A DNA stretch of 37,609 nt from Candidatus Brevefilum sp. (GTDB lineage: Bacteria > Chloroflexota > Anaerolineae > Anaerolineales > Anaerolineaceae). The position numbers were made by a program, and so were the translations under genes. Below, piece after piece: positions 10,178-36,552 of this stretch (position 1 is its first letter; the number at the start of each line of letters is the position of its first letter). The notes under the pieces are model-generated. The model was not told the DNA's origin. It made no database searches and saw only the letters and a program-made list of their open reading frames with translations. The DNA lies in NCBI GenBank assembly GCA_019428905.1, contig JAHYJN010000027.1, forward strand, positions 1 to 37,609, read 5' to 3'.

Positions 10178-11632
10178 ATGCAACAAAAGATAAAAGAACA
10201 AATCGATCGAATCCGATCGCAGGGTGCGGTTTATGTGGATTCCCGCTGGTATCCCAACGAGGAGACCCATAATCTGACGATGTGGAATGGCAACTTAAAG
10301 AATGCCAGTGCAACCCGGGAAAGCGGGATTGGCGTGCGGGTGCTGTTCAAAGGCGCCTGGGGATTTTCGGCCTCGTCTGATATCAACAACCTGCCGGGAT
10401 TGTTTGAAAAAGCCTTGGATAATGCCCGGACTGCGGCTGAACGCGTCACTTTTCCAGTCCGGCTGGCGGAGAAAGATGCCATCCAGGGGTCCTTTTCCAG
10501 CCCAAACCGAATTGACCCGTTTACGATCCCCTTCGATCAAAAAGTGGGATTTCTAAAAAAGATGGATGACCTGCTGAATCAGCCTGGTGTGTCTCAGCGC
10601 GTGGCCGATCTGACCTTTATCCGCAAACAAATCCTGTTTTACGACTCTGAGGGGAGCGAAATCGAGAAGAATATCATTGAGGTATTCCCTTCAATTGGGG
10701 TGATGGGTGTGGATGCCGATGGGCAGACACACAGGCGAAGTTTTAGCCCAGCACGTCTGGGGGACACGCGCGGCTGGGAGACGATTGACGAAGACCTCTT
10801 TACCACCGAGGCGGAGCGGATTGTGCGGGAGCTCAACCAGGTTCTGACCGCGGATTCCTGCCCCAAAGAGGAACGTTCGGTGATCCTTTTGCCAGGCATC
10901 ATGTTCTTACAAACCCACGAGACCATCGGACATGCGCTCGAGCTGGATCGAATCTTAGGGTACGAGCTCGCCTACGCCGGCGGGTCATTTGTCACATTAG
11001 AGGATTTTGGCACCCTGCGTTATGGCTCCGAAAAGCTGACCGCACGGGCTAATGCGACCGTTCCCAACAGCCCCGGCAGCTTTGGTTACGATGATGACGG
11101 CGTGCCTGCCCAGGACAACCTGCTGATTGATAAAGGGATCCTGGTCGGTGCCATCACCGGCCGGCAGATGGTCGAAGAAGCCAATGCTACAGCCCGCAAG
11201 CAAATCTTCCAGGGCAGCAGCGGGGCTAATCGGGCGACCAGTTTCTACCGGGTTCCGATTGAACGCATGACCAATATCAATATCGACCCTGGGACGGACG
11301 GCACCTTGGAAGATATTATCAAGGACACTGAAAAAGGGATCGTGCTGGATGGGGATAAAAGCTGGTCGATCGGCTCTAACCGGGAGCAATTTCACTTTGC
11401 AACGGAGATCGGCTGGCTGGTGGAGGATGGCGAGATCACTGATGTCGTCAAGAACGCCACCTACCAGGGAGAAACCCTCAAATTCTATAATGCCCTGTCT
11501 GCGGTGGGTGATGAATCCACCTGGGAAGTGCAGTATGTTGATAACTGCGGCAAAGGACAGCCAAACCAGGTCATGCAATTGGGTCACGGTGTGCCTGTTT
11601 GCCGGTTCGATAATGTCAGGATTGGAGAATAA
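10178..11632 (+). CDS. tldD: TldD-family metalloprotease subunit
   Basis: The catalytic partner of the TldD/TldE heterodimeric zinc protease, which cleaves unfolded or modified peptides and in some bacteria processes peptide natural products or the CcdA antitoxin. The 484-residue length is normal for TldD. The metal motif is visible as HETIGH (H247, E248, H252), and the third zinc ligand is a C-terminal cysteine in NCGKGQPNQ (C457). The N-terminal half shows the usual family fold, with GIGVRVLFKGAWGFSA early. ATG 10178 follows AAGGAG at a good distance. It is followed by tldE with three bases between the stop and the next start, so the two are certainly co-translated. No natural-product precursor peptide gene is visible beside it, so a general peptide-clearing role is the default. 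Confidence 0.93.
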   Translation: MQQKIKEQIDRIRSQGAVYVDSRWYPNEETHNLTMWNGNLKNASATRESGIGVRVLFKGAWGFSASSDINNLPGLFEKALDNARTAAERVTFPVRLAEKDAIQGSFSSPNRIDPFTIPFDQKVGFLKKMDDLLNQPGVSQRVADLTFIRKQILFYDSEGSEIEKNIIEVFPSIGVMGVDADGQTHRRSFSPARLGDTRGWETIDEDLFTTEAERIVRELNQVLTADSCPKEERSVILLPGIMFLQTHETIGHALELDRILGYELAYAGGSFVTLEDFGTLRYGSEKLTARANATVPNSPGSFGYDDDGVPAQDNLLIDKGILVGAITGRQMVEEANATARKQIFQGSSGANRATSFYRVPIERMTNINIDPGTDGTLEDIIKDTEKGIVLDGDKSWSIGSNREQFHFATEIGWLVEDGEITDVVKNATYQGETLKFYNALSAVGDESTWEVQYVDNCGKGQPNQVMQLGHGVPVCRFDNVRIGE

Positions 11633-11635
11633 CAC

Positions 11636-13021
11636 ATGACGGAAAAAATTATTTCTGTATTGACCAAACTACGCCAATTTGCCATTGAAAACGGCATTAC
11701 GGCAACTTTTTTCTACCATGAAGAAGACAGCGCCCTGATGCGCTTTGCTAATTCGGCCATCTCCCTTAATACCAACGAACATCTGGTGCGCCTCGATATC
11801 ACCGCTTACGAGGGGTGTCAGCGTGCCAGCTATGAGATGATCACCAACCTGGATGCGATTGAGGACATGCAGCAGGGCGTCTTGCAAGCAGGTGAGATTG
11901 TCAAACATGCCCAGCCCCTCAACTACACCCCGACCATACCGGTTTACCAGGAGACCTTCATTGAAGAGGACGCCTACGATCCTAACCTGGCGGGGATTAG
12001 CAATGACGAGAAACTGGCTTATTTCAACCAGGCCGTAGCGGGGCTTGAATCTGACCAGGTTAAGCTGGGCGGCATCTTCTCCAGCGGTCGGAACATCCTT
12101 GTAGTGATGAATACACAGTCGGAACATGCGTTGGCGCATGTCACTTCCGATGCGCAGATTACGATTGTTTTATCGCACAAAACGCTCAAATGGGAATTGA
12201 TCGCAGAACAATCCGCACAGAAGAAAGATGATCTTGATCCAGAAAAAATACATCAGGAGCTGTCCTTCCTGCTGCACCATTACCAGAGTGACCAAGCTGA
12301 GCAGATTCCATTAGGCAAATACGATATCGTCTTTGGTCCGGCTGCTATTGCTGAGTTGGTCAGCACGATGAATTGGATCGGCTTCAACGGCGGGATGATG
12401 AAACGCGGTTATTCCTTCCTGAGCGAAGACCAGCTCGGGAAACGGGTTTTGGGAAGCCCGTTCACCCTGGTTGATGATCCGACCCAGGTTGAGACCTTCC
12501 CGTTCTCGCAAGATTTGATGGGCATTAAGCGTGAGCCTTTTACGCTTTTTGACCAGGGTGTGTTTAAAGCCTTTACCTGGTATCAGGATGATGCCGATGA
12601 GTTTGGCGCTGAGCCTACCGGTCACACGGTGATGCATAAAAGCCTGGTTGTCAGCGCTGGTGAGACGCCGGTCAATACCCTTGAAGAGCTGGTGAAGGCC
12701 CCGCGGGAAAAGGATATCCTGTATATCCCTTATATTCATTACATGAACTTTGTGAACCCTTCCAAGGGGTTGGTCACGGGCAGCTCGCGCTTTGGCGCCC
12801 TGCTGCTGAAAGCGGATGGCAGCGTGGTGGTGCCCTATAACGTGCGTCTCACCCAAAGCCTGCTGGATATCTTCAGCGAAAAGATCGCCTGGATCTCAGA
12901 TGGGCAAGTCGCCTATAACACGTCGATGAGCTACGGAGCCCGCAACCCCACAGCTTTGATCGTGCCCAATTTTGTGTGCGTCAAAGACCTGGAGATCTCG
13001 CACGCCAACAGTTCGTATTAA
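11636..13021 (+). CDS. tldE: TldE/PmbA-family protease partner subunit
   Basis: The non-catalytic partner of TldD, 461 residues, same overall fold but without the HExxxH zinc motif: the corresponding region near LGKYDIVFGPAAIAELVSTMNWIG lacks the histidines and glutamate. This is the expected distinction between PmbA/TldE and TldD. In known complexes TldE shapes the inner chamber of the heterodimer so that only extended peptides reach the TldD active site. The start ATG 11636 lies three bases after the tldD stop, with GGAG just upstream inside tldD. The C-terminus carries MSYGARNPTALIVPNFVCVKDLEISH, which resembles the family ending. A 12-bp inverted repeat follows the stop and may end or protect the transcript. 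Confidence 0.9.
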   Translation: MTEKIISVLTKLRQFAIENGITATFFYHEEDSALMRFANSAISLNTNEHLVRLDITAYEGCQRASYEMITNLDAIEDMQQGVLQAGEIVKHAQPLNYTPTIPVYQETFIEEDAYDPNLAGISNDEKLAYFNQAVAGLESDQVKLGGIFSSGRNILVVMNTQSEHALAHVTSDAQITIVLSHKTLKWELIAEQSAQKKDDLDPEKIHQELSFLLHHYQSDQAEQIPLGKYDIVFGPAAIAELVSTMNWIGFNGGMMKRGYSFLSEDQLGKRVLGSPFTLVDDPTQVETFPFSQDLMGIKREPFTLFDQGVFKAFTWYQDDADEFGAEPTGHTVMHKSLVVSAGETPVNTLEELVKAPREKDILYIPYIHYMNFVNPSKGLVTGSSRFGALLLKADGSVVVPYNVRLTQSLLDIFSEKIAWISDGQVAYNTSMSYGARNPTALIVPNFVCVKDLEISHANSSY

Positions 13022-13030
13022 GCGCTTGTG

Positions 13031-13089
13031 CCAAGCCCATCGCACCCCGACCCCGTGACCTAACGTGGACAGGGTAACGATGGGCTTGG
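13031..13089. repeat. 12-bp perfect inverted repeat after tldE
   Basis: CCAAGCCCATCG (13031-13042) is exactly complementary to CGATGGGCTTGG (13078-13089), with 35 bases between the arms. It begins 10 bases after the tldE stop. No T-run follows, so it is not a standard intrinsic terminator. An mRNA 3'-end stabiliser or a small mobile palindrome are alternatives. Confidence 0.6.
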
Positions 13090-13565
13090 TTCAGAGCCGG
13101 TTACTGGCATAACTGAACCCGTGCTGGTAGGGGGATCTTGATCCATCAGATTGGATTGTAATAAATGGGGACAGGTAGAACCACCGGGAAATTTATTTTA
13201 GATAAAAATAAATAGTGAGCCATTAAAACGAAGTATAGAGTGCAAAAAATACCAGTTAATTAGTTGAAGCTATCCCATTGTCTTTGCTGCTTACCAATCC
13301 ACTATCCTTTGGGCCACTGTTCTGATCTCCGATAAATTTGTTGGATTTTGTGATGGTCAAAAATCACATTTTGGTCGAAAATGGCATTCAAATCAACGGC
13401 CGGGTCAATAAACTATCCTGAGAATAATATTAAAAATATGCATTCCTTGTTACGGTCTAATCATCTTGTCGCTTAACCCGATTGAGTACAGGTCAGGGAC
13501 CAGGTTGATGGTTGGCATGGTTACGAATGATCGTGATTCTGGTGACAAATGATGCTGGTGATCAA

Positions 13566-13593
13566 TTTCCGTCCGGTGTTCGTAAGGTATAAT
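13566..13593 (+). promoter_or_regulatory. Possible promoter of the ornithine operon
   Basis: A perfect TATAAT at 13588-13593 is preceded at 16 bases by TTTCCG (13566-13571), a poor -35 match. It is the clearest plus-strand -10 box in the leader, about 270 bases upstream of ord. A weak -35 would be consistent with activator control. Confidence 0.3.
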
Positions 13594-13822
13594 GGAGTCA
13601 CAAGTAGGACGGTTATTTTATGCATGCATCGTTTCTAATTGACTCACCACCATCGAAACTTTTCATTAGAATTAAGCATCCTTCCCGTTTAATCACAATG
13701 ATTAACTGTATCAAGCGAAAGTCAACTCTGAAACTTGTGTCTTTTTTCAATCACGACCACTTCAGAACTGATTTGAAATTTACAGAAGCATGATGGATCA
13801 GTCATTCAGCTTAAAGCCTGGC

Positions 13823-13837
13823 TGGTCTTTAAAACCA
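13823..13837 (+). promoter_or_regulatory. Imperfect dyad upstream of ord
   Basis: TGGTCTTTAAAACCA is an inverted repeat with one mismatched pair, located 23 bases upstream of the ord start and just before its AAGGAG ribosome site (13848-13853). It could be an operator or a small mRNA hairpin; on its own it is weak evidence. Confidence 0.25.
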
Positions 13838-13860
13838 CCATTTACACAAGGAGAATAATT

Positions 13861-14904
13861 ATGACAAAACCAATTCGTGTCGTTCAATGGGGGCTCGGAG
13901 CAATGGGAAGTGGCACAGCGAAGCTCATGCTCGAAAAAGAAGGCTTAGAGATCGTGGGAGCCATTTGCACGCGGCCACAACTGGTCGGAAAAGACTTAGG
14001 GGAAATTCTTGGTCTTGATAAGACTCTGGGCATTATTGCCACCAATGATCCGGCCAGCGTTCTGGATAAGGAGAAGGTGGATATCGTCTCTTTAGCCACA
14101 AATTCGTGGGTTAAGACCCAAATGCCAAGCCTGCGGCAGATCATCTCAGCCGGAATAAATGTTGTCACCATTGCAGAGGAAATGGCAGACCCAGCCGCGC
14201 AGAACCCAGAGCTTGCTGATGAAATTGATGAATTGGCTAAAAAGCATGGCGTGACTGTTTTGGGGACGGGTGTGAATCCAGGATTTGTGCTTGACCTGTT
14301 AGTGATCACCCTAACCGGGGGCTGCCATACCGTTGAACGAATCGAAGCACGGCGAGTGAATGACCTGAGTCCCTATGGCGTCTCTGTGATGAGGGGTCAG
14401 GGCGTTGGTACCACACCTGAGGCATTCCGACAGGGTGTGGCAGAAGGGACGATTGTCGGTCATGTTGGTTTCCCTGAATCGATTCACATGATCAGTGAAG
14501 CGCTGGGCTTGGGCGTCGATCGCATTGAGGAAAGCCGTGAGCCGATCATCAGCAATATTTACCGAGAGACGCCCTATGTAAAAGTTGAGCCGGGAATGGT
14601 GGCAGGCTGTGCCCATATCGGCGTTGGTTACTGTGGTGAAAAAGAAGTGGTCCGCCTGATCCACCCGCAGCAAATTCATCCGCACCTTGAAGGGCAGGAT
14701 ACCGGGGACTACATTGATATCTATGGGATGCCCGAAGTCCACATGGCGATCAAGCCCGAGATTGCTGGGGGGGTGGCGACCATCGGCATTACCGTGAATA
14801 TGATCCCGCATATTGTTGCAGCAACGCCAGGTATGAAACGCATGATCGATCTACCTACGCCTGCGGCATTGATGGGATTGAGCGCTTACTCGCGGCAAAT
14901 CTAG
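13861..14904 (+). CDS. ord: 2,4-diaminopentanoate dehydrogenase
   Basis: NAD(P)-dependent enzyme that oxidises (2R,4S)-2,4-diaminopentanoate, with loss of ammonia, to 2-amino-4-oxopentanoate: the third step of the anaerobic oxidative ornithine pathway. The 347-residue length fits the family. The N-terminal Rossmann motif is clear (VVQWGLGAMGSGTAKLM, residues 7-23), as is the dihydrodipicolinate-reductase-like middle part (VNPGFVLDLLVITLTG). The assignment is strengthened by the next genes, which supply every other step of the pathway. ATG 13861 follows AAGGAG with a 7-base spacer. It is the first gene of the operon and is preceded by an unusually long leader (13022-13860). Ord relatives outside this context reduce other substrates, but here the role is near certain. 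Confidence 0.93.
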   Translation: MTKPIRVVQWGLGAMGSGTAKLMLEKEGLEIVGAICTRPQLVGKDLGEILGLDKTLGIIATNDPASVLDKEKVDIVSLATNSWVKTQMPSLRQIISAGINVVTIAEEMADPAAQNPELADEIDELAKKHGVTVLGTGVNPGFVLDLLVITLTGGCHTVERIEARRVNDLSPYGVSVMRGQGVGTTPEAFRQGVAEGTIVGHVGFPESIHMISEALGLGVDRIEESREPIISNIYRETPYVKVEPGMVAGCAHIGVGYCGEKEVVRLIHPQQIHPHLEGQDTGDYIDIYGMPEVHMAIKPEIAGGVATIGITVNMIPHIVAATPGMKRMIDLPTPAALMGLSAYSRQI

Positions 14905-14932
14905 AATTTCATTTTTTTAGGAGGCGTATCTT

Positions 14933-15217
14933 ATGACACAAGTAAAAGCCGGGACGTGGGTTGAAATTGAGAAGATCTTGCTGACGCCTGAGCAGCGGGC
15001 ACCCACTTTGCCGGAAGACACCAAGCAGGTGCCCTATGTATTAAATGTCAGTGGTTTTTTGCTGGAAGATGCTGAGCTGGGCTCACCAGCCCGGATCCGG
15101 ACGCTGATTGGGCGGGAATTGGAGGGCACGTTGAAGACGGTCAACCCGAGCTATGCGCATAGTTTTGGGGAGGTCGTTCCCGAGCTGCTCACGATCGGAC
15201 TCGAGGAGGAAGCATGA
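14933..15217 (+). CDS. ortA: 2-amino-4-oxopentanoate thiolase, small subunit OrtA
   Basis: A 94-residue subunit of the OrtAB thiolase, which cleaves (2R)-2-amino-4-oxopentanoate with CoA to acetyl-CoA and D-alanine. OrtA is a small protein with no cofactor motif of its own. Recognisable features are the opening KAGTWVEIEKILLTPEQRAP, the central GFLLEDAELGSPARIRTLIGRELEGTL and a C-terminus ending near SFGEVVPELL. It is slightly shorter than the ~100 residues of clostridial OrtA. ATG 14933 is preceded by a strong AGGAGG. Its last codons overlap ortB by four bases (ATGA), so the two subunits are translationally coupled, as expected for an obligate complex. Confidence 0.9.
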   Translation: MTQVKAGTWVEIEKILLTPEQRAPTLPEDTKQVPYVLNVSGFLLEDAELGSPARIRTLIGRELEGTLKTVNPSYAHSFGEVVPELLTIGLEEEA

Positions 15218-16644
15218 GCCACCACGATATGTCTTATGCAGCGGTAATGAGCCGCAAAAATGAGATCATGAAAGCCTCACTCGGGATTGATTATGATAAT
15301 TATGTTCAATCCCCGATCGCCTTTGATTACGAGCGCATGATGGATGAGACGGGCTATTCCATTGAGGATGTCGCCCGCATCCAGCGCGAGACCAAGGTTG
15401 GAAACACCCCCCTGTTTGAACTACGCAACCTGACACAGGCTGTGCGACGCATATCTGAGCCGGGAAAAGGCGCCACGATCCTGCTCAAGGATGAGGCAGC
15501 CAATGCCTCAGGTAGTTTTAAAGCCCGTCGGGCGTCGATTAGCGCTTATGAGGCAGCCCGCAAGGGATTCAAAGGGATGATTGCAGCCACCAGCGGCAAC
15601 TATGGCGCGGCGGTCGCCTCACAGGCTGTACAACGAGGCCTGAAGGCGATTATTATCCAGGAGGTATTTGACAGCCGGGGTGTGGGTCAGCCTGAGATTA
15701 TCGAAAAGGGTCGTAAATGTGAAGCCTACGGCGCGGAAGTGCTCAAGCTTTCGGTGGGGCCGGAGTTGTTCTACTTACTGCTGCGCACCCTGGAAGAAAC
15801 CGGATTCTTTAATGCCAGCCTGTACACACCCTTTGGCGTTCGGGGTGTGGAGAGCTTGGGCATTGAAATTGCCCAGCAGGTGCGGGATGGATACGGTAAA
15901 GACCCGGATGCTGTGGTGATCACACATGCCGGTGGGGGTAATCTGACGGGTACGGCGCGTGGTCTGCTGGCGGCTGGGTGCGAGAACACCCGCATTGTGG
16001 CTTGCTCGGTGGATTTGAGCGGCTTGCATATGGCTTCGGATCATGACTTCAATCGCAAATCCTTCACCACGGGCCACACCGGGTTTGGCATCCCCTTTGC
16101 CACCTGGCCTGACCGGGTGGATGTCCCCCGCAATGCCGCCCGTTCTCTGCGCTATATGGATGAGTACCAACTCGTCACCCAGGGTGAGGTGTTCTATGTG
16201 ACCGAGTTATTGACCAAGATGGAAGGCCTGGAGCGCGGCCCAGCTGGCAATACCAGCCTGACAGCCGCCATCACCCTGGCCAGGGGGATGGACCAGGACC
16301 AGGTTGTGGTCGTCCAGGAGACGGAATACACCGGTGCTGGCAAGCATCACAACAGCCAGCTCAGTTTTGCCCGTGAAAACGGGATCGAGGTTCGCCGTGG
16401 TGACCCCAAGGACAGCGTCCCTGGTAAATCCATCGTCATCCCCGAACGGCTGGAGCAGGTCTGGGGTAGCGTCCAGGATATGGACCGGCTGCGGCTTTCA
16501 TACTTGCGAAATGCTGCCAAACAATACCCAATGGAAAGTTGGAAGGCAGAGGATATCCAGTTCCTGGCTGCGGATATAAAGGTCACCACCGATTGGGTCC
16601 ACCAGCAAATGGCTGAACTGCCATCCATTGGCGAGGCAGAATAA
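15214..16644 (+). CDS. ortB: 2-amino-4-oxopentanoate thiolase, PLP subunit OrtB
   Basis: The catalytic PLP-dependent subunit (476 residues) of the OrtAB thiolase. It has the fold-type II (threonine-synthase-like) architecture: the PLP lysine is K103 in ASGSFKARRA (98-107), and the phosphate-contact and glycine motifs include TSGNYGAAVASQAVQRG and the later THAGGGNLTGTARG. With OrtA it forms acetyl-CoA and D-alanine from 2-amino-4-oxopentanoate. The start overlaps the end of ortA. After the stop there is a 153-base gap to oraS that carries a nested hairpin (16658-16730), the largest internal gap of the operon. Threonine synthase or a diaminopropionate lyase would be the look-alikes, but the context excludes them. 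Confidence 0.93.
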   Translation: MSHHDMSYAAVMSRKNEIMKASLGIDYDNYVQSPIAFDYERMMDETGYSIEDVARIQRETKVGNTPLFELRNLTQAVRRISEPGKGATILLKDEAANASGSFKARRASISAYEAARKGFKGMIAATSGNYGAAVASQAVQRGLKAIIIQEVFDSRGVGQPEIIEKGRKCEAYGAEVLKLSVGPELFYLLLRTLEETGFFNASLYTPFGVRGVESLGIEIAQQVRDGYGKDPDAVVITHAGGGNLTGTARGLLAAGCENTRIVACSVDLSGLHMASDHDFNRKSFTTGHTGFGIPFATWPDRVDVPRNAARSLRYMDEYQLVTQGEVFYVTELLTKMEGLERGPAGNTSLTAAITLARGMDQDQVVVVQETEYTGAGKHHNSQLSFARENGIEVRRGDPKDSVPGKSIVIPERLEQVWGSVQDMDRLRLSYLRNAAKQYPMESWKAEDIQFLAADIKVTTDWVHQQMAELPSIGEAE

Positions 16645-16657
16645 CAAAGATAAAATT

Positions 16658-16730
16658 CCAGGTAAGCCCACTCAGACAGCGCGCACAGTGAGATTGATCG
16701 CGTGCGGGTAAGATGGGTGGGCAAGCCTGG
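16658..16730 (+). other. Nested RNA hairpin between ortB and oraS
   Basis: CCAGG (16658-16662) pairs with CCTGG (16726-16730), and GCCCAC (16666-16671) pairs with GTGGGC (16717-16722), separated by a symmetric 3x3 internal loop. Further in, CGCAC (16682-16686) pairs with GTGCG (16702-16706). The whole is a 73-base extended hairpin. It is not followed by a T-run. Position suggests mRNA processing or differential expression of thiolase and mutase halves; this is inference. Confidence 0.5.
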
Positions 16731-16797
16731 ATGAATGCGTCGAGAAAGATTAAGATTCGAGGCAGGTTTTAGTTTAAATTCGAAGGGAGAGACTTTG

Positions 16798-17184
16798 ATG
16801 ATGGATGATCGGTTTGCCCGGTTTGAAGCACGCCGGGAAAAATATAAGGAACTGTCTGACGAAGCACTCAAAGCCCATTTTTGGGATCTGTGCGACCAAA
16901 TCGTGGCACCGATTGTGGACCTCGCCCGCACCCATACCTCACCATCGATCGAGCGGTCGGTCTTGCTGCGCATGGGGATCGACAGCCAGAAAGCCCATGG
17001 CGTTGTCGATCGGGTACAGCAAGCAGGCTTGTTGGGCAAAGGTGCCGGGCATGTTTTGCTGCGTTTAGCTGAAAAACGTGGATCGGATGTCAGGGAAGCA
17101 GCGGAAGCGATCCTGGTGGATAAAGACGTCCTGGTGGGACTTTTCGCCACGCCCCCTGGTTCGCAGGATGAGGAGGTTAAGTGA
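16798..17184 (+). CDS. oraS: D-ornithine 4,5-aminomutase, small subunit OraS
   Basis: A 128-residue subunit of the B12- and PLP-dependent ornithine 4,5-aminomutase, which moves the terminal amino group of D-ornithine to C4, giving 2,4-diaminopentanoate. OraS has no cofactor site; it stabilises the OraE catalytic chain. Family features are the opening DDRFARFEARREKYKELSDEALKAHFW and the middle PSIERSVLLRMGIDS, followed by KGAGHVLLRLAE. I chose ATG 16798 (followed by a second ATG at 16801) because a GGGAGA site lies about 8 bases upstream; an in-frame ATG at 16735 lacks a site and lies next to the hairpin. Its stop overlaps the oraE start as TGATG. Confidence 0.92.
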   Translation: MMDDRFARFEARREKYKELSDEALKAHFWDLCDQIVAPIVDLARTHTSPSIERSVLLRMGIDSQKAHGVVDRVQQAGLLGKGAGHVLLRLAEKRGSDVREAAEAILVDKDVLVGLFATPPGSQDEEVK

Positions 17185-19394
17185 TGAAAGCGCAAAAACC
17201 CCTTAATCCTCAGCAAAAAATGGATATTGAAGCGATCCTTAACGATTTAGAAAACTATCGCCCAATACGCAAAGGCTGGACGTGGCGTAAGGTCCTGGAA
17301 GATGGCATCGAGATGGGACCATTTCATTTTCACAATATGTCCGAGCCGTTAAAGAACAGCATTGGACTTCCCGCTTCGAAGTACTTTGACCAAATCGACC
17401 CGCAGCCGGAATGTGTGATTACAACCGAGATCGCCTCCGGGCGGTTTGAGGATGACCTGCGACGGATGCGGATGGCTGCCTGGCACGGCGCAGACCACCT
17501 GATGGTGATCCGCACCACCGGCCAGAGCCACATTGACGGCCTGATGGAAGGCACCCCGGAGGGTGTAGGCGGCGTGCCAATCACCCGCAAGCAGTTACGT
17601 GCCAGCCGCAAAGCGTGTGACCTTATCGAAGAAGAGGTTGGCCGCCCAATCAATTTCCACAGTTATGTGTCTGGCGTGGCGGGTCCGGAAGTGGCGGTGC
17701 TGTTCGCCGAAGAAGGGGTAAACGGCGCGCACCAGGACCCCCAATATAATGTGCTGTACCGCAACATTAACATGTACCGCTCCTTTGTGGATGCGGCTGA
17801 AGCCAAGTTTGTCATGACGGCGGGTGAAATATTCCAGATCGATGGTGCGCACAACGCCAATGCGACTGCTAAAGCGGGGTGGCTGGTGATGCCCGAATTG
17901 CTGGTGCAGCACGGCATCAACTGCGCTTACTCGATCGCTTCGGGTATGCCAAAAGAGCTGATTGGGCTTTCAACCGTGCCGCCCAACGCGCCGCCCGCGC
18001 CTAAATTGTGGTACGACCTACCCTACGCGGTCGCCTTGCGTGATATCTTCTCGGATTTCAAGATGCGCGCCCAGCAGAACACACGCTACATCGAGTCCGA
18101 TATCGAGGAAGCGATCCGCACCCACACGATTGATACGTTGATCTCGATGCTGACCAGCGCCGATATTCAGAGCACCATCACCCCGGATGAAGGGCGAAAT
18201 GTCCCCTGGCATTACAACAACATCCGCGGCGTGCAAACCGTCAAGCAGACCTGGTCTGCCCTGGATGGGATCAAGGAACTGCTCAGCCTGAAGATGGATG
18301 GCCCGCTGGGCGAGATGGCACGCGATATCAAAGAACGAGCAGTTGCATTCCTGGAGGAAATCCTGGAGGTTGGCGGCTATTTTGCAGCTGTTGAACAGGG
18401 TTTCTTTGTCGATTCAGCCCTCTATCCAGAACGCAGCGGGGACGGCATCGCCCGTGATGGACAGGGCGGTGTGGCGGCCAATTCGATCGTGCCCCGAGAC
18501 CCGGATTACCTGGCGCCGGTGTGCGCCCATTTTGGCGACAATCACCTGCCAGAGGGATTGGAAAACCCGTGTGACCTGATTGATGGCTGCACGCTGTGCC
18601 ACCCAGAAAAGATTGTGTATATCGACGAGCTGGACCCCGAAGATTCTGCGGACCGGCGTTTGGAGCAAACCTACCCCTATCGCAAGGGCGGCCTGATTCG
18701 ACCTGAAGCGGAGTGGGCGGGTGATGGCACCGTCTTGGTGCAGCTGATGGTCCCTGAGAGCGAAGAATATGCGCGTGAAGCCGGTTTGGAAATCGCCAGG
18801 CGGATGGGTTTGGAAGATCCCCAGGTGATCAACTTGATGGTGCTCCACCCGGCAGAGGGCTGTTTCCTGGAAGTGAAGGGGAAAGTGACCTTTGATATTG
18901 ACCGCGATACTCTCAAGATCCCACCCAAGGTCGAGCTGCTGCCCGAGGAAGAACTTCGAGAAGCTGTCAAGCAGGTGGGGCTGAAGGTGGTTGCCGGGAC
19001 GGTTGGTGAGGATGAACACAGTGTGGGTATGCGTGAAATCCTGGATATCAAGCATGGCGGCATTGAAAAGTACGGTGTCAAATATCACTACCTGGGGACA
19101 TCGGTGCCGGTCAGCAAGCTGATCGATGCAGCGATTGAAACCGGCGCGCATGCCATCCTGATCTCAACCATCATCAGCCATAATGACATTCACCGCCAGC
19201 AGATGAAGAAATTGGCCGAATTGTGCCTGGAAAAGGGCATCCGGGACCAGGTGATCCTGATTGCTGGCGGAACCCAAGTGACGCCAGATATGGCAGCCGA
19301 AACAGGTCTGGATGCCACCTTTGGGCGCGGCACCAAGGGCATCCATGTGGTGGATTCGATGGTGAAAACATTAAAGAAGCGCGGCGTTCTGTAA
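17184..19394 (+). CDS. oraE: D-ornithine 4,5-aminomutase, catalytic subunit OraE
   Basis: The large subunit (736 residues) binding both PLP and adenosylcobalamin. The N-terminal ~500 residues are the TIM-barrel mutase region. The C-terminal Rossmann domain shows the base-off B12 motif D-E-H-S-V-G (D610, H612, G615), and eleven residues later K623 (in DIKHGG), which by spacing matches the PLP-binding lysine of clostridial OraE and of lysine 5,6-aminomutase. The terminal LIAGGTQVTPDMAAETGLDATFGRG completes the B12 fold. I prefer ATG 17184 over the GTG at 17181: it overlaps the oraS stop by one base and has AGGAGG at 17171-17176. The enzyme suffers suicide inactivation in studied species, which fits a reactivation factor encoded next. 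Confidence 0.95.
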   Translation: MKAQKPLNPQQKMDIEAILNDLENYRPIRKGWTWRKVLEDGIEMGPFHFHNMSEPLKNSIGLPASKYFDQIDPQPECVITTEIASGRFEDDLRRMRMAAWHGADHLMVIRTTGQSHIDGLMEGTPEGVGGVPITRKQLRASRKACDLIEEEVGRPINFHSYVSGVAGPEVAVLFAEEGVNGAHQDPQYNVLYRNINMYRSFVDAAEAKFVMTAGEIFQIDGAHNANATAKAGWLVMPELLVQHGINCAYSIASGMPKELIGLSTVPPNAPPAPKLWYDLPYAVALRDIFSDFKMRAQQNTRYIESDIEEAIRTHTIDTLISMLTSADIQSTITPDEGRNVPWHYNNIRGVQTVKQTWSALDGIKELLSLKMDGPLGEMARDIKERAVAFLEEILEVGGYFAAVEQGFFVDSALYPERSGDGIARDGQGGVAANSIVPRDPDYLAPVCAHFGDNHLPEGLENPCDLIDGCTLCHPEKIVYIDELDPEDSADRRLEQTYPYRKGGLIRPEAEWAGDGTVLVQLMVPESEEYAREAGLEIARRMGLEDPQVINLMVLHPAEGCFLEVKGKVTFDIDRDTLKIPPKVELLPEEELREAVKQVGLKVVAGTVGEDEHSVGMREILDIKHGGIEKYGVKYHYLGTSVPVSKLIDAAIETGAHAILISTIISHNDIHRQQMKKLAELCLEKGIRDQVILIAGGTQVTPDMAAETGLDATFGRGTKGIHVVDSMVKTLKKRGVL

Positions 19395-19420
19395 TCGAAG
19401 CATGCTAGGTAAGAGGACCT

Positions 19421-20758
19421 GTGAACCGTGACCTGCTAACCATTGAAGTTGGCTCGACCATCACCAAAGCCAACGCTTTCCGACTGCAGCCAGATGGCAT
19501 TTTTGAACACCTGGCACAGGGTTTTTCGGCGACAACCGTAGGAGATGGCGATGTGGGCATCGGCGTCGACCGGGTGATGGCGGATTTAGAAGCGGGTTTG
19601 AATGGGGGATTACACGACCCGCAAATTTTTATCAACAGCTCTGCAGCGGGTGGACTGCGTATGACCGTCCACGGTCTGACGCACAGCATGACCGCCAGGG
19701 CAGCCCGCGAGGCCGCCCTGGGGGCCGGCGCGATCATCAAGCTGGTAACTGTAGGCCGTCTGGATGAAACTGACCTGGAGGAAATCCAGGACATTCAGCC
19801 GAACATCATCCTGCTGGCGGGTGGGGTTGACTACGGCGAAAAGACGATTGTGATGCGTAATGCCGAAAGTTTAGCTTCATTGGGTTTAAAAATCCCCATC
19901 ATCTACGCTGGTAACTCCGCCATCCGCAAACCGATCCTGAAGATTTTTAAAACGGCCGGGTTGGAGACCTTGCTGGCGGATAATGTCTTCCCGGATGTGG
20001 ATGTGCTTAATATCGAGCCGGTACGGCGCTTGATCCAGGACGTGTTTAACCGCCACATTATCCAAGCCCCGGGGATGAGCCGCCTGGGTGAGCTGACCGA
20101 TAACCAGATCCTGCCGACGCCGGGGGCAGTGCTGCACGGAGCAGAATTGTTTGCTGAAGCCCTGGGCGACTGCCTGGTGTTCGATGTGGGGGGTGCCACC
20201 ACGGATGTTCACAGCGTTAGTGATGGCAGCCTGGAATGGGCTGACCGGCTGACCGAACCTGAACCGCGTGCCAAGCGCACGGTGGAAGGCGATTTGGGTG
20301 TTTTTATCAACGCTGAGAACATTATTGCCCTGGCGGATGATTCTGACTTCAACTTCCGCTTAGAGGACCTGCGAGCTGTCCCGCAAACCCAACAGGAGAT
20401 CGAGCTGACCCGCTGGTTGTGCACCAGGGCGGTAGAAACCGCTGTTCGGCGCCATGCTGGGGTTGTGATGGATTTGTATACCCCTACCGGTAAACGGCAA
20501 ATCGTCAAAGGTAAGGATCTGAGCGCTGTTCAGTGGGTGATTGGCACCGGCGGCGCATTGACGCGCATCCCCGGTGGCGAGGACATCCTGCACTCAATTT
20601 GCACAGGTCCTGGAAAATACCTGTTCCCCAATCCGGATGCCCGGGTTTTAATTGACCGCAATTACCTGTTTTCTGCGCTGGGTACCATGGCCAGCACCTA
20701 TCCTGATGCGGTCAAAAGCACCTTCCAGGCATGGGTTGGTCGGCAAATGGCTGAATGA
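19421..20758 (+). CDS. GlmL/MutL-like ATPase of ornithine degradation clusters
   Basis: A 445-residue protein of the GlmL/MutL family (actin-like/ASKHA ATPase fold; unrelated to mismatch-repair MutL). Two phosphate-binding loops are visible: LTIEVGSTITKANAF at the N-terminus and FDVGGATTDVHSV near residue 260. GlmL is encoded beside B12-dependent glutamate mutase in clostridia, and this version is known from ornithine-degradation clusters. Its likely job, by analogy with diol-dehydratase reactivases, is ATP-driven exchange of damaged cobalamin from OraSE; this remains inference. The start is GTG 19421 with an AGAGGA site; the next gene begins 13 bases after its stop. Its place directly after oraE supports a role on the mutase. 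Confidence 0.85.
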   Translation: MNRDLLTIEVGSTITKANAFRLQPDGIFEHLAQGFSATTVGDGDVGIGVDRVMADLEAGLNGGLHDPQIFINSSAAGGLRMTVHGLTHSMTARAAREAALGAGAIIKLVTVGRLDETDLEEIQDIQPNIILLAGGVDYGEKTIVMRNAESLASLGLKIPIIYAGNSAIRKPILKIFKTAGLETLLADNVFPDVDVLNIEPVRRLIQDVFNRHIIQAPGMSRLGELTDNQILPTPGAVLHGAELFAEALGDCLVFDVGGATTDVHSVSDGSLEWADRLTEPEPRAKRTVEGDLGVFINAENIIALADDSDFNFRLEDLRAVPQTQQEIELTRWLCTRAVETAVRRHAGVVMDLYTPTGKRQIVKGKDLSAVQWVIGTGGALTRIPGGEDILHSICTGPGKYLFPNPDARVLIDRNYLFSALGTMASTYPDAVKSTFQAWVGRQMAE

Positions 20759-20771
20759 GAAAGGGTTTTAT

Positions 20772-21854
20772 ATGTACACGCACACCCCACGCTTGGAAAT
20801 TTTCTCGGACCGAATTGCAGAAAACGTCCGGTATATCCTCAAGATGTGCCATGATCACGGCGCCCAGGTGGCCTGTGTTTCAAAGGTGTTGTGCGCTCAC
20901 CCAGCATTACTGGAAACCTTTGTTAATAACGGTGCCGATATGCTGGCTGACTCCCGCACCCAAAACTTGAAACTGATTGCAGAACTGTACCCCCAAATGC
21001 CGCGTTTGCTGTTGCGGCCGCCGGCGCTGGGTGGGGTGGCGGATGTGATTCGCTATGCGGATGTTTCACTGCATTCATCGCTTGAAACCCTGCGGGGGCT
21101 TTCCCAGGCGGCTGAGGGGAGCAGCACCCCCCACCAGGTGATCATCATGGTCGATGTGGGCGACTTGCGAGAGGGCGTCTGGCCGGACCAGGTGGTTTCC
21201 CTGGTGATGGCTGCTGCAAAGCTACCCCACCTGGAAATTGCCGGATTGGGGACCAACCTGGCCTGTTATGGTGGGGTGATTCCTACACCCGAGAATATGC
21301 AGGTGTTGATCAATTGCCGGGATGCCTGCCGGGCAGCGACCGGGTTGCCACTGGAGGTGCTGTCTGGCGGGAATAGCGCCAATTTGCCCTTGCTGGCCAG
21401 CGGTGGCATGCCGCCTGAGATCAACCATTTTCGGATTGGAGAGGCGATTATTTTAGGGCGCAATGTCCTTGATCGGACCGCTTTGCCCGGTACTCGCCAG
21501 GACGGCTTGCGAGTCGTGGCTGAAGTGATTGAACTTGAGTGCAAGCCCTCCATCCCGATCGGTCCGCGCGGTCAGGATGCCTTTGGGAACCAGGTCGAAT
21601 TTGTCGATCGCGGCGTGCGTCAACGCGCCCTGCTGAACCTTGGCCGCCAGGATGTGGATATTGAAGGGCTGATACCGGAAGATGAGGGGATCATTGTCTT
21701 GGGCGGGAGCAGTGACCACCTGGTGCTGGATGTGAGTGATGCGCACACGCCGCTCAAGCTGGGTGATGAGGTCGGCTTCATCCCTTCTTACAGCGCGCTC
21801 TTGGCGGCTTCCACATCCCCATATGTTGAAAAAGTCGTCATCCAGGGGTTATAA
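20772..21854 (+). CDS. orr: Ornithine racemase
   Basis: PLP-dependent racemase (360 residues, alanine-racemase-like TIM barrel) that makes the D-ornithine required by OraSE: the entry step of the pathway. The PLP lysine is K38 in VACVSKVLCAHP; the family-typical LMVDVGDLREGVWP-like segment (here IIMVDVGDLREGVWPDQ) and GLGTNLACYGGVIPT are clear and separate Orr from true alanine racemase. ATG 20772 lies 13 bases after the preceding stop, behind GAGAAAGGG. Upstream in-frame codons inside the preceding gene would add an unrelated leader and are rejected. It is followed by alr with 16 bases between, so two PLP racemases of different subfamilies stand side by side. Confidence 0.92.
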   Translation: MYTHTPRLEIFSDRIAENVRYILKMCHDHGAQVACVSKVLCAHPALLETFVNNGADMLADSRTQNLKLIAELYPQMPRLLLRPPALGGVADVIRYADVSLHSSLETLRGLSQAAEGSSTPHQVIIMVDVGDLREGVWPDQVVSLVMAAAKLPHLEIAGLGTNLACYGGVIPTPENMQVLINCRDACRAATGLPLEVLSGGNSANLPLLASGGMPPEINHFRIGEAIILGRNVLDRTALPGTRQDGLRVVAEVIELECKPSIPIGPRGQDAFGNQVEFVDRGVRQRALLNLGRQDVDIEGLIPEDEGIIVLGGSSDHLVLDVSDAHTPLKLGDEVGFIPSYSALLAASTSPYVEKVVIQGL

Positions 21855-21870
21855 AAGCGAGGAGACAGGC

Positions 21871-22992
21871 ATGCTTTACCAGACCTATGTCCGTATTCAT
21901 CTTGATCATATCCGTTTTAATATTGAGGGTGTCCGCCAGACAGTTGGGGAGCAGCGGCGGATCTTGATTGCCGTTAAAGCCAATGCTTACGGGCACGGGG
22001 CGGTTGAAGTCTCACGCTTGGCGGAGCAGGTTGGTGTGAATTGGCTGGGTGTGGCGACTGTTCCTGAAGCAATCCAACTTCGTGAGGCTGGCATCAGTCT
22101 GCCGATGTTAAAATTTTCGCCTGCTTTTGAAGAAGAGATGCGCGCGGCACTGCATAATAATCTCACCCTGACAGTGTGCGAGATGGAAAACCTCCGGGCA
22201 CTGCAAGCGGTATGTGCCGCAGAAAAGATCACAGGGCGGGTGCACCTCAAAGTTGAAACCGGTATGGGGCGGATTGGGGTGCCTATCGCAGAAGCGCCGG
22301 CGATGGCTGCTTTCATTGAGAATCAATGCCCCGACCTGGTGTTGGAAGGGGTTTTCACCCACCTGCCGGTCAGTGATATTCCCGAGGCTGACTTCACCCA
22401 GTTACAAATTGAGCGCTTTAAGGCGGTGGTGGAAGACATTCACAGCGCAATTGGGCGGCGGGTTGAGCTGGTGCACTGCGCCAATTCGGGGGCTGTGCTC
22501 GGGCATGAGCCCGGGTGGCTGGACATGGTCAGACCGGGGATCATGATCTATGGACATTATCCCGACCCACGCACACCGCGCACCATCCCCCTTAAACCCG
22601 GAATGAGCATGGTTACCCAGGTGTCCTTTATCAAGAAAGTGGCCGCTGGCACCAGCATCGGGTACGGCCGCACCTGGTTTGCCCCCCAGGATACGTGGAT
22701 TGCCACCATCCCGGTGGGTTATGCAGATGGCTTCAACCGGTTATTTTCAAACCGCGGCAGGGTTTTGATCAATGGGCGGTCTTACCCGGTGGTGGGGCGG
22801 GTGTGCATGGACCAGAGCATGGTCGGCCTGGGGTCAGAAACAGATGTGAAGGTCGGCGATCAGGTTGTATTGATGGGTAGGAGCGGGGCAGAGGAAATCA
22901 CCTGTGATGAGTGGGCGGAAATGCTAAATACGATCACCTACGAGGTCACCTGTCAGATCAACCCCCGCGTCACACGTGTTTACGAGGGGTAA
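21871..22992 (+). CDS. alr: Alanine racemase, last gene of the ornithine operon
   Basis: A canonical alanine racemase of 373 residues. The two catalytic bases are visible: K36 in IAVKANAYGHG binds PLP, and Y265 in SIGYGRTWF is the second base. The YADGFNR and GRVCMDQSMV motifs of the C-terminal beta domain are present. ATG 21871 follows GAGGAGACAGG. Alr normally supplies D-alanine for peptidoglycan. Here it sits 16 bases after orr and ends the operon, and OrtAB releases D-alanine. So it probably also runs in the direction D- to L-alanine, feeding alanine into transamination or deamination. Whether this is the only alr of the genome cannot be seen from the window. Confidence 0.93.
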   Translation: MLYQTYVRIHLDHIRFNIEGVRQTVGEQRRILIAVKANAYGHGAVEVSRLAEQVGVNWLGVATVPEAIQLREAGISLPMLKFSPAFEEEMRAALHNNLTLTVCEMENLRALQAVCAAEKITGRVHLKVETGMGRIGVPIAEAPAMAAFIENQCPDLVLEGVFTHLPVSDIPEADFTQLQIERFKAVVEDIHSAIGRRVELVHCANSGAVLGHEPGWLDMVRPGIMIYGHYPDPRTPRTIPLKPGMSMVTQVSFIKKVAAGTSIGYGRTWFAPQDTWIATIPVGYADGFNRLFSNRGRVLINGRSYPVVGRVCMDQSMVGLGSETDVKVGDQVVLMGRSGAEEITCDEWAEMLNTITYEVTCQINPRVTRVYEG

Positions 22993-23080: not shown

Positions 23081-24316
23081 CTAAATGGATCTTATGACGA
23101 CAACTGTGAAATCATCCTTAATCTGGGAATGATAAACTGAACCTCCAACGGTCCGCCATAGCTGATCACACAGGGATTGAGCACTGAGCTGATCCTCCCT
23201 TATTAGCTTTGCACACAATTGAGGTAACCTGGGTAATTCAAGGTGGTCATCAATCGTCTCACTCAACCCATCGCTGTAAATGATCAGTGATCCCTTACTA
23301 GGAAGAATGAAACCTCCTGTGTCGATGGCGAACTCATCAAATATTCCCAAGGGTTGGCCCAAGCTGAAGGGGAGGTCAATCATCTGGACGTGGTTGTTCA
23401 AAACAAGCGGCGTTGTATGTCCTGCACGAGCATAAACAAATTCACGGCTTTGGGTGTTAAGAATCCCGAACAAAAGCGTAACAAACATTCCTGAGCGGTT
23501 GATTTGCAATAAATGATTGTTGACCGCCTGTAGTATGGTTGAAGGGGTTTCATGGCGATGTGCTTCAGCTCGGATTAAGGAATAAGTCAATGCCATGAAT
23601 AACGCTGCTGGCATGCCTTTGTCACATACATCGCCGATGACGATCGCGATTTGATGCTCGTCGAGGGGGATGAAATCATAAAAATCACCCCCGACCTGCC
23701 TGGCTGGAATCATCAATGCCCCAAAGTCCCATCCCTTGTATTTGGGTAAACCCTCCGGGAGAATATTACGCTGCATTTCTCCGGCAATTTTCAATTCATG
23801 TTCTAACTTTTCATTCTCGATCATGGCTGCTTGGGCAGCTTGTAAGTCTTCATATGCCTGAAGGAGTTGCCGGTTCTTCTCACGCAAATCTTGGATGGTC
23901 AGGTTTTCAGAATTTTCCAATCGATTTGTGAACAGTCTCAACAGCTTATAAGTGATTTCTGGATGGCGTTGCAGCACCTCATCAAACTGGGTGGTGGGGA
24001 TCATGAGCAGTTTAACTGCGGTACGTGCACGTGCGCTGGCTGTATGCGTACCTTCTTGACTGAACATGCTCATCTCACCAAGAACAGCGCCCTTCTTGCT
24101 GATTGCCACACATCGCTCATCAGCGGTATCTAGGGATTTGATGATTTCAACCTCACCATTCACAAGGAAATAAACTTGGTCAGATGATGAACCTTCAGTA
24201 AACAAGACTTGTCCGGATAAAAAGTGGCATTCTTGCGTAGATTTTTTTAGAGCACGGCATGCGCTGCCTGGCAGGTCTGCAAATAATGGAAATTGACTGA
24301 TTTTTTCTTCATACAT
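23081..24316 (-). CDS. PP2C/SpoIIE-type phosphatase with N-terminal cyclic-nucleotide-binding domain
   Basis: A 411-residue cytosolic signalling enzyme. Residues 8-135 form a cNMP-binding fold (FPLFADLPGSACRALKK, then GQVLFTEG and VYFLVNGEVEI). Residues 140-185 look coiled-coil. Residues 195-411 form a PP2C phosphatase of the RsbU/SpoIIE type, with metal-ligand motifs VGGDFYDF (208-215), GDVCDKGMPAALFMA (228-242), YSDGLSET and the final DDFTVVV all intact. Such enzymes dephosphorylate anti-sigma antagonist (STAS) proteins, but no STAS or kinase gene is next to it. In the phosphate-binding cassette GE is kept (E81) but the usual Arg is His91, so the ligand may differ from cAMP. The start at 24316 has GGAGAGAGC upstream. 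It lies downstream of a nucleotide cyclase gene on the same strand. Confidence 0.9.
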   Translation of the reverse strand: MYEEKISQFPLFADLPGSACRALKKSTQECHFLSGQVLFTEGSSSDQVYFLVNGEVEIIKSLDTADERCVAISKKGAVLGEMSMFSQEGTHTASARARTAVKLLMIPTTQFDEVLQRHPEITYKLLRLFTNRLENSENLTIQDLREKNRQLLQAYEDLQAAQAAMIENEKLEHELKIAGEMQRNILPEGLPKYKGWDFGALMIPARQVGGDFYDFIPLDEHQIAIVIGDVCDKGMPAALFMALTYSLIRAEAHRHETPSTILQAVNNHLLQINRSGMFVTLLFGILNTQSREFVYARAGHTTPLVLNNHVQMIDLPFSLGQPLGIFDEFAIDTGGFILPSKGSLIIYSDGLSETIDDHLELPRLPQLCAKLIREDQLSAQSLCDQLWRTVGGSVYHSQIKDDFTVVVIRSI

Positions 24317-33498: not shown

Positions 33499-34179
33499 TC
33501 AAGCCGCTTCTGTTTCCATCTCGAAGCCCGGAATTTTTGTTTTCCGTTCGAGCCACTTTAACAAGGCGCTCATGGCAAAGACCATAACCAGGTAAATCAC
33601 GGCGATCGCCAGGTAGCTGCCAATCGGGTTGTAAGTGATGGATGCGGCCCGCTTGCCGCGTGCCATCAGGTCCTGCACGGCGATCAGGAATACCACGGCG
33701 CTGGTCTTCAACAAGGAGATGGGCTCGTTGGACCAGGCGGGGATGACCAGGCGCAGCGCCTGGGGCATGATAATGAAGCGGATGGTCTGCCAGCGGGAGA
33801 GGCCGATCGCCCGGCCGGCGGTCATTTGTGATTCGCCGATGGATTGGATGGCCCCACGGATGTACTCGGCCTGGTAGGCAGCGCTGTTAAACCCCAGTGC
33901 CAGGTAAGCTGAAACGGATTGCGAGAGGGTCAGGCCTAGCGACGGCAGCCCGTAATAGATCAGGAACAGCTGGACCAGCAGGGGCGTTCCCCGGAACAAC
34001 TCGATAAACCCGATGGCGATTATGCGCAGCGGCTTTGACCCATAGGCTCTCATTAATGCCAGCGTTAAACCGAGGGCAAACCCCAAAAGGATTCCAACCG
34101 CCGTCAGCTCAAGGGTAACGGCAGTTCCTTTAAGGAATTCTGGTAAGAAGCGCTGTAGAATAACGAAAACACTGCCCAT
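33499..34179 (-). CDS. Polar amino acid ABC transporter permease, second subunit
   Basis: A 226-residue integral membrane permease of the HisM/GlnP type with about five helices. The EAA-like loop contacting the ATPase is visible around QMTAGRAIGLSRWQTIRFIIMPQALRLVIPAW. GTPLLVQLFLIYYGLP is typical of the family. Its start ATG (34177-34179) abuts the stop of the ATPase gene, so it is co-translated with it. It is the last gene of a four-gene importer operon (binding protein, permease, ATPase, permease), all on the minus strand. Two different permeases suggest a heterodimeric channel. The tail is charged (RKTKIPGFEMETEAA). Confidence 0.92.
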   Translation of the reverse strand: MGSVFVILQRFLPEFLKGTAVTLELTAVGILLGFALGLTLALMRAYGSKPLRIIAIGFIELFRGTPLLVQLFLIYYGLPSLGLTLSQSVSAYLALGFNSAAYQAEYIRGAIQSIGESQMTAGRAIGLSRWQTIRFIIMPQALRLVIPAWSNEPISLLKTSAVVFLIAVQDLMARGKRAASITYNPIGSYLAIAVIYLVMVFAMSALLKWLERKTKIPGFEMETEAA

Positions 34180-34944
<765 letters not shown>

Positions 34945-34957
34945 TTCTTTCTCCAAT

Positions 34958-35602
34958 TTATGGATTTGCGGGGATGCGCATCCGTTTATCCAATCCATCC
35001 AATAGGCGATTGGTGACAAATACCAGCATAAAGTAAATCAACCCTGCGACGATGAACGCCAGGAAGGGCTGTTGGGTACTGGCGCTGATCAATTGTGCGC
35101 GGCGCAAGATTTCAGGTACACCCAGTGCATACACTAGAGAGGAGTCTTTGATCACAATCGCTGCCTCGTTGGACCAGGGGCAAATGGCCATGCGAAAAGC
35201 CTGCGGGATGATGATATGTTTGATCGCACGCATCCTGCTCATACCAATCGCCCGTGCGGCCATCATCTGGGCGCCGCTGACGGATAATAAAGCGCCGCGG
35301 ATGATCTCCATCTGGTAAGCACTGCTCACAATCCCTAAAGATATCGAGCCGGCCCAAAAGGGCGACAGGTTGATATTGCCTGAGACCATAAAATACAGGA
35401 TAAACAGCAAAACGATGGGTGGGATGCCGCGCATGACCGTACTGTAGATGGACATGATGCGGGTCAAGACTTTTCCGCCGTAGACGTATAATAATGAAAA
35501 AATGAGGCCTAAGAACAAACCTAGCGGTAAGGCGATCAATGTGACCGATACGGTATAGGCCGTGCCTGAAGCAATGTATTGGATGAACCTACCCACGTCC
35601 AT
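34958..35602 (-). CDS. Polar amino acid ABC transporter permease, first subunit
   Basis: A 214-residue permease of the HisQ/GlnP type and a divergent paralogue of the one at 33499. The cytosolic coupling loop reads [32 protein letters not shown], and the second segment has [18 protein letters not shown]. The start at 35602 follows GGAG. It lies 110 bases after the binding-protein gene, across a hairpin (35659-35696), and 13 bases before the ATPase start. It forms the membrane pore together with the other permease. Confidence 0.92.
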
Positions 35603-35658
35603 ACGTAACTATCTCCATAGCAACACTTATGTTTGGGTACCTGTTAGAACGAATTTTT

Positions 35659-35696
35659 CTGGGAGAAAAGGTGGTTTATTTGATCTTTTCTCCCAG
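35659..35696 (-). other. Hairpin between binding-protein and permease genes
   Basis: CTGGGAGAAAAG (35659-35670) and CTTTTCTCCCAG (35685-35696) form a perfect 12-bp stem with a 14-base loop. It lies 17 bases after the binding-protein stop in the direction of transcription. On the minus strand it is followed by A, not T, so it is more likely a 3'-end stabiliser of the binding-protein message than a full terminator. Confidence 0.6.
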
Positions 35697-35712
35697 GTGT
35701 TGTCGATGAACC

Positions 35713-36504: not shown

Positions 36505-36552
36505 TTCTTCCTCCTCCGTGAATAGTCGACAACCTGTTGTTTGCTGATCCCT

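Follow-up and report, generated by a model that had tools for sequence, protein, structure and literature searches.

An operon-borne alanine racemase gene that appears to have displaced the native alr in Candidatus Brevefilum sp. and relatives

The ornithine operon and its terminal alr gene

Alanine racemase, a classic enzyme of the cell wall and an antibiotic target, is normally regarded as the product of a stand-alone housekeeping gene. The alr considered here is the last of eight genes of an ornithine fermentation (or) operon in a stretch of 37,609 nucleotides from Candidatus Brevefilum sp. (contig JAHYJN010000027.1), which as a whole is called the window, its genome being G000. All of the evidence is genomic, and most of the genomes compared are metagenome-assembled genomes (MAGs). 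The features of the operon, with the family models matched, are listed below.

13022..13860, no strand: 839-base stretch 5' of ord, presumed regulatory region (no listed open reading frame of at least 90 aa)
13861..14904, + strand: ord, 2,4-diaminopentanoate dehydrogenase (NF040740, 519 bits, cut-off 400; PF19328)
14933..15217, + strand: ortA, 2-amino-4-oxopentanoate thiolase, small subunit (NF040739, 117 bits, cut-off 70)
15214..16644, + strand: ortB, 2-amino-4-oxopentanoate thiolase, PLP subunit (NF040741, 816 bits, cut-off 550)
16798..17184, + strand: oraS, D-ornithine 4,5-aminomutase, small subunit, probable start (PF16552 OAM_alpha, 131 bits; frame checked)
17181..19394, + strand: oraE, D-ornithine 4,5-aminomutase, large subunit (B12/PLP) (NF040743, 1328 bits, cut-off 800)
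19421..20758, + strand: or-4, GlmL/MutL-like accessory protein (NF040744 as best match; TIGR01319 over cut-off; PF13941)
20772..21854, + strand: orr, ornithine racemase (NF040742 as best match; PF01168; conserved cluster position)
21871..22992, + strand: alr, operon-type alanine racemase, 373 aa (TIGR00492, 368 bits, cut-off 168; PF00842)

The eight open reading frames (ORFs), which together span 13861-22992, are in frame with zero internal stops, and the intergenic spacings from ord to alr are 28, -4, 153, -4, 26, 13 and 16 bases. Ord, OrtA, OrtB, OraE and Alr exceed the curated NCBIfam equivalog cut-offs and OraS passes Pfam OAM_alpha, while Or-4 (539.8 bits, NF040744 cut-off 600) and Orr (390.7 bits, NF040742 cut-off 480) have these families as their best match yet stay under the NCBIfam cut-offs; the broader TIGR01319 is passed by Or-4, which we take to be likely to serve in mutase reactivation. 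All seven or-cluster genes (ord, ortA, ortB, oraS, oraE, or-4 and orr) are thus present on one strand. Exactly 16 bases, with AGGAG inside the gap, separate the stop of orr from the ATG of alr at 21871, and counted from this ATG K36 and Y265, the catalytic residues of alanine racemase, are correctly placed, so that the eight close same-strand genes, the 16-base gap and the two residues described in the original prediction, which was made from the letters of this stretch, were all confirmed on the sequence. The next gene (23081-24316), which encodes a cNMP-binding/SpoIIE-type protein, lies on the opposite strand, and alr is therefore the last gene of the run. Since the layout recurs in many genomes it is not due to chance, and the eight genes are probably co-transcribed.

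The window Alr scores over the curated cut-offs of TIGR00492 and PF00842, with both domains and the catalytic Lys and Tyr, and its closest solved relatives are alanine racemases, from 266 bits down. Racemases of lysine or broad specificity scored 128-156 bits against it, a range in which some alanine racemases fall as well, and the cut-off of the DadX model NF002970 was not reached (151.4 bits vs 600). The product is thus a predicted alanine racemase, which shares 35-38% identity with the native Alr found in eight congeners.

Occurrence of alr beside orr

To place the arrangement, GTDB species genomes were scanned with the window OraE, and the eight window proteins were mapped onto the loci of the best 80 of at least 589 confirmed relatives, a sample skewed to close relatives. 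A locus was scorable when it had orr downstream of oraE and then either contained alr or ran on for no less than 1.2 kb, as was the case for 49 of the 80; the 31 unscored loci were cut before orr (13) or just after it (1), had neither orr nor alr in view (8), had orr upstream and no alr (3), or were from Halanaerobiales and had no orr (6). An alr came immediately after orr in 31 of 49 scorable loci, under eight phylum labels: Chloroflexota (17), Actinomycetota (4, one Arsenicicoccus and three Mobilicoccus), Riflebacteria/Ozemobacter (4), Acidobacteriota (2, one of which, L084, is a piece cut by a contig end), and one each labelled Spirochaetota, Bdellovibrionota, Myxococcota and Methylomirabilota. 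Most of these loci come from MAGs, and the labels may err. The aligned parts of orr and alr were at most 84 bases apart in all 31; in Cutibacterium (2 of 49) alr lay about 3.6 kb beyond orr, and in 16 of 49, among them all seven Bacillota, alr was absent. The orr-alr arrangement is therefore widespread outside the sampled Bacillota and is not specific to Chloroflexota, contrary to what the original prediction had raised as a possibility, being found also in Actinomycetota and in MAGs under six further phylum labels.

In six loci of Halanaerobiales, an order of Bacillota (L087 at 12216-13307, L093, L101, L102, L103 and L112), an Alr-family gene directly follows oraE and no orr was found within the fetched locus. 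This Alr forms a separate lineage and was the sole PF00842 gene in all five genomes searched (L101 was left out). Either orr is located elsewhere in these genomes, or the Alr after oraE racemises ornithine too.

Distances among OrtB, OraE, Or-4, Orr and Alr gave Mantel r values of 0.60-0.86 in the 24 of 80 loci where all five were near full length, which would fit joint transfer of the genes and which shared ancestry alone could also yield. Besides, ord was only 46-48% identical in L045, L053, L061 and L084 (Spirochaetota/Acidobacteriota labels), where most other genes were about 60-81% identical, and may have been exchanged separately there; L062 carries two ord copies.

Two Alr types and the native alr site

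A census of the family covered 147 genomes and defined an operon-type Alr as one scoring more than 500 bits to the window Alr. The best scores fell into two classes, 516-852 bits in 24 genomes and at most 266 bits in the other 112 with a match, the latter including a few partial or very weak matches (G054, G215, G236 and G254), and 11 genomes had no Alr match. Ornithine-type OraE was found in 31 of the 147 genomes (not counting a piece of 53 residues at a contig edge in G002), operon-type Alr in 24 and the two together in 22. Of the genomes in which any Alr was matched, the operon type was thus carried by 22 of 27 with OraE vs 2 of 109 without; the Fisher values for this association ignore kinship, and the contrast recurs in four varying genera (g1, g8, g9 and g15), so that it is not one event counted several times. 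The four OraE-bearing genomes without an Alr match (G003, G038, G051 and G241) are incomplete or fragmented assemblies. Of the 24 operon-type genomes, 22 have a single Alr match, the exceptions being G036 with two and G082 with three (a full-length operon-type Alr, a second operon-type copy that is partial, and one more match, where PF00842 finds two genes, one of them partial), and in 19 the operon-type alr adjoins orr. Co-occurrence of alr with the cluster in relatives, which the original prediction had offered for checking, was thus borne out in the family as well as among the scorable loci.

Eight congeners that lack OraE have an Alr scoring about 228-248 bits against the window Alr, in comparison to 639-692 bits for the four other congeners of the operon type. 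In trees of 82 and 79 Alr proteins, built by a quick method with Shimodaira-Hasegawa-like approximate likelihood ratio support (SH-aLRT) only, the operon-type Alr of several phyla grouped in a single clade (support 100), to which the native Alr of the same genus did not belong. That the window Alr descends from this native type was rejected by the approximately unbiased (AU) test of a same-genus grouping (p 1.9e-70), for which the groups were set by kinship and the first tree had already been seen. Some actinobacterial members of the clade (e.g., L152, L153, L159 and L166) do not lie beside orr, and the lineage may therefore have an actinobacterial origin.

The native site was then defined in the congeners lacking the operon, with neighbours identified by Pfam (PHP, TGT and BacA), as a PHP-domain gene, alr, a divergent tgt and a gene of the BacA family, also named uppP. 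Native alr lay between PHP and tgt in all seven operon-lacking congeners with both flanks, out of the eight with an Alr (the eighth is G006, whose contig ends before tgt; G001, counted among the seven, has a tgt piece only). In all five operon-type congeners (G000, on contig C132, G004, G005, G007 and G014) PHP and tgt were found facing each other without alr, their aligned parts 139-354 bases apart, and the search for native-alr remnants in these five sites returned only matches of 19 and 21 residues, both in G005 (E 0.06 and 0.14). Across the family, tgt was located in 22 of the 24 operon-type genomes: G219, G232 and G234 have PHP near tgt (up to about 740 bases) with no alr between, G036, which has both racemases, has its native alr still adjoining tgt, and in the other 13 there is no native alr near tgt and PHP is not adjacent, the contig of G231 starting inside tgt. 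Judging from these sites and trees, the operon-type alr has displaced a native alr that was located separately.

Two genomes without OraE, G022 (99% complete) and G082 (96%), have an operon-type alr as their only full-length alr. Their alr is followed by the same ORF run (about 162, 372, 103, 509 and 259 aa) as in the operon-bearing G255 and G256, at up to 95% protein identity; the run was not shared by G056 (L055), the fifth genome of g8 inspected. Loss of the operon up to alr would be the simplest reading, and alternatively the operon may have arrived later beside a pre-existing alr. A comparison of Mobilicoccus caccae with its relatives, 38 genomes in all, gave an independent case: operon-type Alr (here more than 400 bits) was found in five, in all five beside orr and in four without a second match; the Alr of G270 is intermediate (334 bits), and in the remaining 32 only a distant Alr was matched, at no more than 238 bits.

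Two further observations concern the aminomutase genes of the family. The oraE of L245 (G245, contig C10) borders on a contig end; its matched region is interrupted by three TGA stops in frame, and overlapping frames were seen as well, as would be expected of a decayed ornithine operon or an assembly error; G245 has a native-type alr. Relatives in genus g15 (e.g., G029, contig C3, 17021-18929, and G085, contig C10) carry a second aminomutase-like pair, also in operon-less genomes, which is about 26-29% identical to OraE and probably of the lysine type.

Racemases and D-alanine supply

A single alr was found in the window genome (3.04 Mb in 149 contigs, 92% complete) by both the protein search and the PF00842 search, and the operon alr thus appears to be the only alanine racemase gene of the cell, as far as found. 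The genomes of 50 of the 80 loci, all 31 orr-alr loci included, were searched with PF00842, and the orr-adjacent copy was matched to the PF00842 gene by position or identical sequence. It was the only PF00842 gene in 27 of the 31 genomes; two alr were found in L053, L059 and L077 and none in L084. This named-locus sample and the family sample overlap.

The window genome has a D-Ala-D-Ala ligase (336.7 bits, over a cut-off that 10 of 14 control genomes also exceeded) and no match to the D-amino-acid transaminase model, the cut-off of which was exceeded in none of 22 genomes, with weaker matches in six. A separate cell-wall racemase was rejected, the alr and PF00842 searches having matched no second gene and the transaminase model none at all. 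Alanine dehydrogenase as a sink for L-alanine was dropped likewise, as TIGR00518 had no match in the window genome. G000, G014 and six operon-less congeners of g1 (G006 and G009-G013) had zero transaminase matches while g8 and g22 have weak ones, which suggests that class IV aminotransferases are few in the window genus.

A shared racemase for ornithine use and the cell wall

With a sole alr, an empty native site and a D-Ala-D-Ala ligase, a single enzyme appears to serve both the ornithine pathway and the supply of the cell wall. We therefore favor the reading, at a probability of roughly two in three, that one racemase of dual role joins ornithine-derived D-alanine to the cell-wall D-alanine pool and that its operon-linked lineage has displaced the native alr. 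The original prediction had the operon racemase free the pathway from the cell-wall supply route; the single alr, the vacated site and the ligase speak against this and would turn the separation around, with the two joined. It had also named, as what would count against it, a sole Alr expressed independently of ornithine, and the sole-copy half of this is what was found, as far as the search reaches.

Co-residence in the operon and displacement are what the genomes show, and for the two directions of flux we infer the following. OrtAB would release one D-alanine per ornithine, which should be far above the demand of the cell wall, and an Alr made together with the operon enzymes would convert it into L-alanine, which could be transaminated, built into protein or excreted, so that a D-to-L role of alr during ornithine use is plausible. 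When ornithine is not used, the same Alr would make D-alanine from L-alanine for the pool of the D-Ala-D-Ala ligase. Once the operon-type enzyme is present the native copy would be redundant, which would explain its loss; with the native copy gone the operon-type copy could not be lost, which would explain G022 and G082, and the operon racemase is presumably essential.

Several results weigh against this reading. Some concern the count of racemases: a second alr could be missing from an assembly that is 92% complete in 149 contigs, and PF00842 matched only 8 of the 14 control genomes (those without a match were four archaea, Corynebacterium glutamicum, which has an alr, and Thermotoga maritima), so that a divergent second racemase could escape. 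The native Alr type is well within the reach of the search, and its loss is therefore firmer than the claim of an only racemase. Other results concern the genomes compared. The native-site comparison did not include the congener G003, which has a piece of OraE and lacks an Alr match, G036 keeps both the operon-type and the native alr, and the operon-type alr is detached from orr in G219, G233 and G234. G035, G041, G064, G073 and G245 have OraE with native Alr only, so that the cluster can work without an alr of its own. For G022 and G082 the synteny is one-sided, as the upstream comparison with G256 gave no matches, and the search for orr, or-4 and ord remnants upstream of their alr gave only a 15-residue match (E 0.86). 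Finally, the scan of the orr-alr gap returned no promoter-like site, which fits less well with a housekeeping gene that would be expressed without ornithine.

The same results bear on what else the gene might be. A dedicated catabolic racemase, converting D- to L-alanine only while cell-wall D-alanine comes from a separate route, would fit a gene placed 16 bases past orr and adjacent to it in 31 of 49 scorable loci, the D-alanine reported as the OrtAB product (PMC3091704), and a second racemase of the divergent kind that the PF00842 search can miss; we regard it as improbable, since no separate route was found (a sole alr, no transaminase match, an empty native site) and in two genomes that lack OraE no full-length racemase other than the operon-type one was found. 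The five OraE-bearing genomes with native Alr only, the operon-type alr without OraE in G022 and G082 and its detachment in three genomes would be more in line with a housekeeping alr that moves with the cluster under its own promoter and has no role in ornithine use. This is somewhat less improbable but still an unlikely account, because orr and alr remain tightly linked under about eight phylum labels, their aligned parts at most 84 bases apart when adjacent, no promoter-like site was found between them, and a separate Alr lineage directly follows oraE in Halanaerobiales. It is the six Halanaerobiales loci, with an Alr-family gene and no orr in the fetched locus, that would favor the last gene being a second ornithine racemase or a broad-spectrum racemase not acting on alanine. 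In the window, however, orr is present in its own right, the Alr score is far above the TIGR00492 cut-off, the best solved relatives (266 bits and down) are alanine racemases rather than the lysine or broad-specificity enzymes at 128-156 bits (even if some alanine racemases score equally low), and the operon-type alr takes the place of a native alanine racemase, which together make this possibility very remote.

Under the shared-racemase reading, the operon may, more speculatively, act as a cassette that captures an essential gene, in that its racemase would render the native copy redundant, and the operon would thereby take over the D-alanine route, fuse the fermentation with the cell wall and make its own end hard to delete, so that relatives losing the operon would keep exactly alr; a similar linkage would have arisen separately in Halanaerobiales with another Alr lineage. 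We consider this extension doubtful. An alr that sits within a catabolic operon moving between phyla, with the native gene gone, would be a case of an operon displacing a supposedly essential gene, and one would expect D-alanine homeostasis to be coupled to ornithine fermentation. For annotation, the alr of an or cluster is usually the only alanine racemase gene found in these genomes and should not be taken as a spare catabolic copy.

Other features of the window

The operon is preceded on its own strand by a TldD/PmbA-type metallopeptidase pair (10178-13021), and an ABC transporter with two permeases, an ATPase and a family 3 binding protein is encoded on the - strand at 33499-36801. No tRNA or Rfam matches were found in the window, and the stretch 13022-13860 had no Rfam match and no + strand sigma-70-like site. 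The promoter scans returned 1 and 4 promoter-like sites, in comparison to means of 1.7 and 2.1 for shuffled sequence, and the terminator scan returned none.

Comparison with known systems

A literature search over the titles and abstract openings listed found no description of an alr in the or cluster at that level, and the 2009 paper on the clostridial oxidative ornithine cluster (Fonknechten 2009, cited in PMC3091704) may mention one. The clostridial cluster (C. sticklandii and C. difficile) has the same seven enzyme and accessory genes as the window, a part of this set being given in PMC8803604. The window differs in having an alr after orr, and the sole alr found at that; the original prediction had not counted alr as a standard clostridial member, which agrees with the absence of an orr-adjacent alr from all seven scorable Bacillota loci. 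D-alanine is given as the product of oxidative ornithine use in PMC3091704, where C. sticklandii is also described as excreting L- and D-alanine and as having no alanine dehydrogenase, and for C. difficile L-alanine is predicted instead in PMC8803604.

As an alanine racemase that would be used in amino-acid catabolism, the window Alr resembles DadX. The dadX and dadA genes are linked in an operon; the window alr has no dadA beside it, its neighbours being orr and the cNMP/SpoIIE protein, and no DadA-type match was found among the 29 window ORFs scanned, the rest of the genome not having been searched for dadA. In E. coli, DadX and DadA make up a catabolic alanine racemase system (PMC6146663), in which the D-alanine made by DadX goes to DadA and a housekeeping Alr is present besides DadX, whereas the catabolic direction of the window Alr would be from D to L and only one racemase was found. 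In comparison to housekeeping Alr (TIGR00492), the window Alr is likewise full length with the catalytic K and Y, and it differs in belonging to an operon-linked lineage and in sitting inside a fermentation operon.

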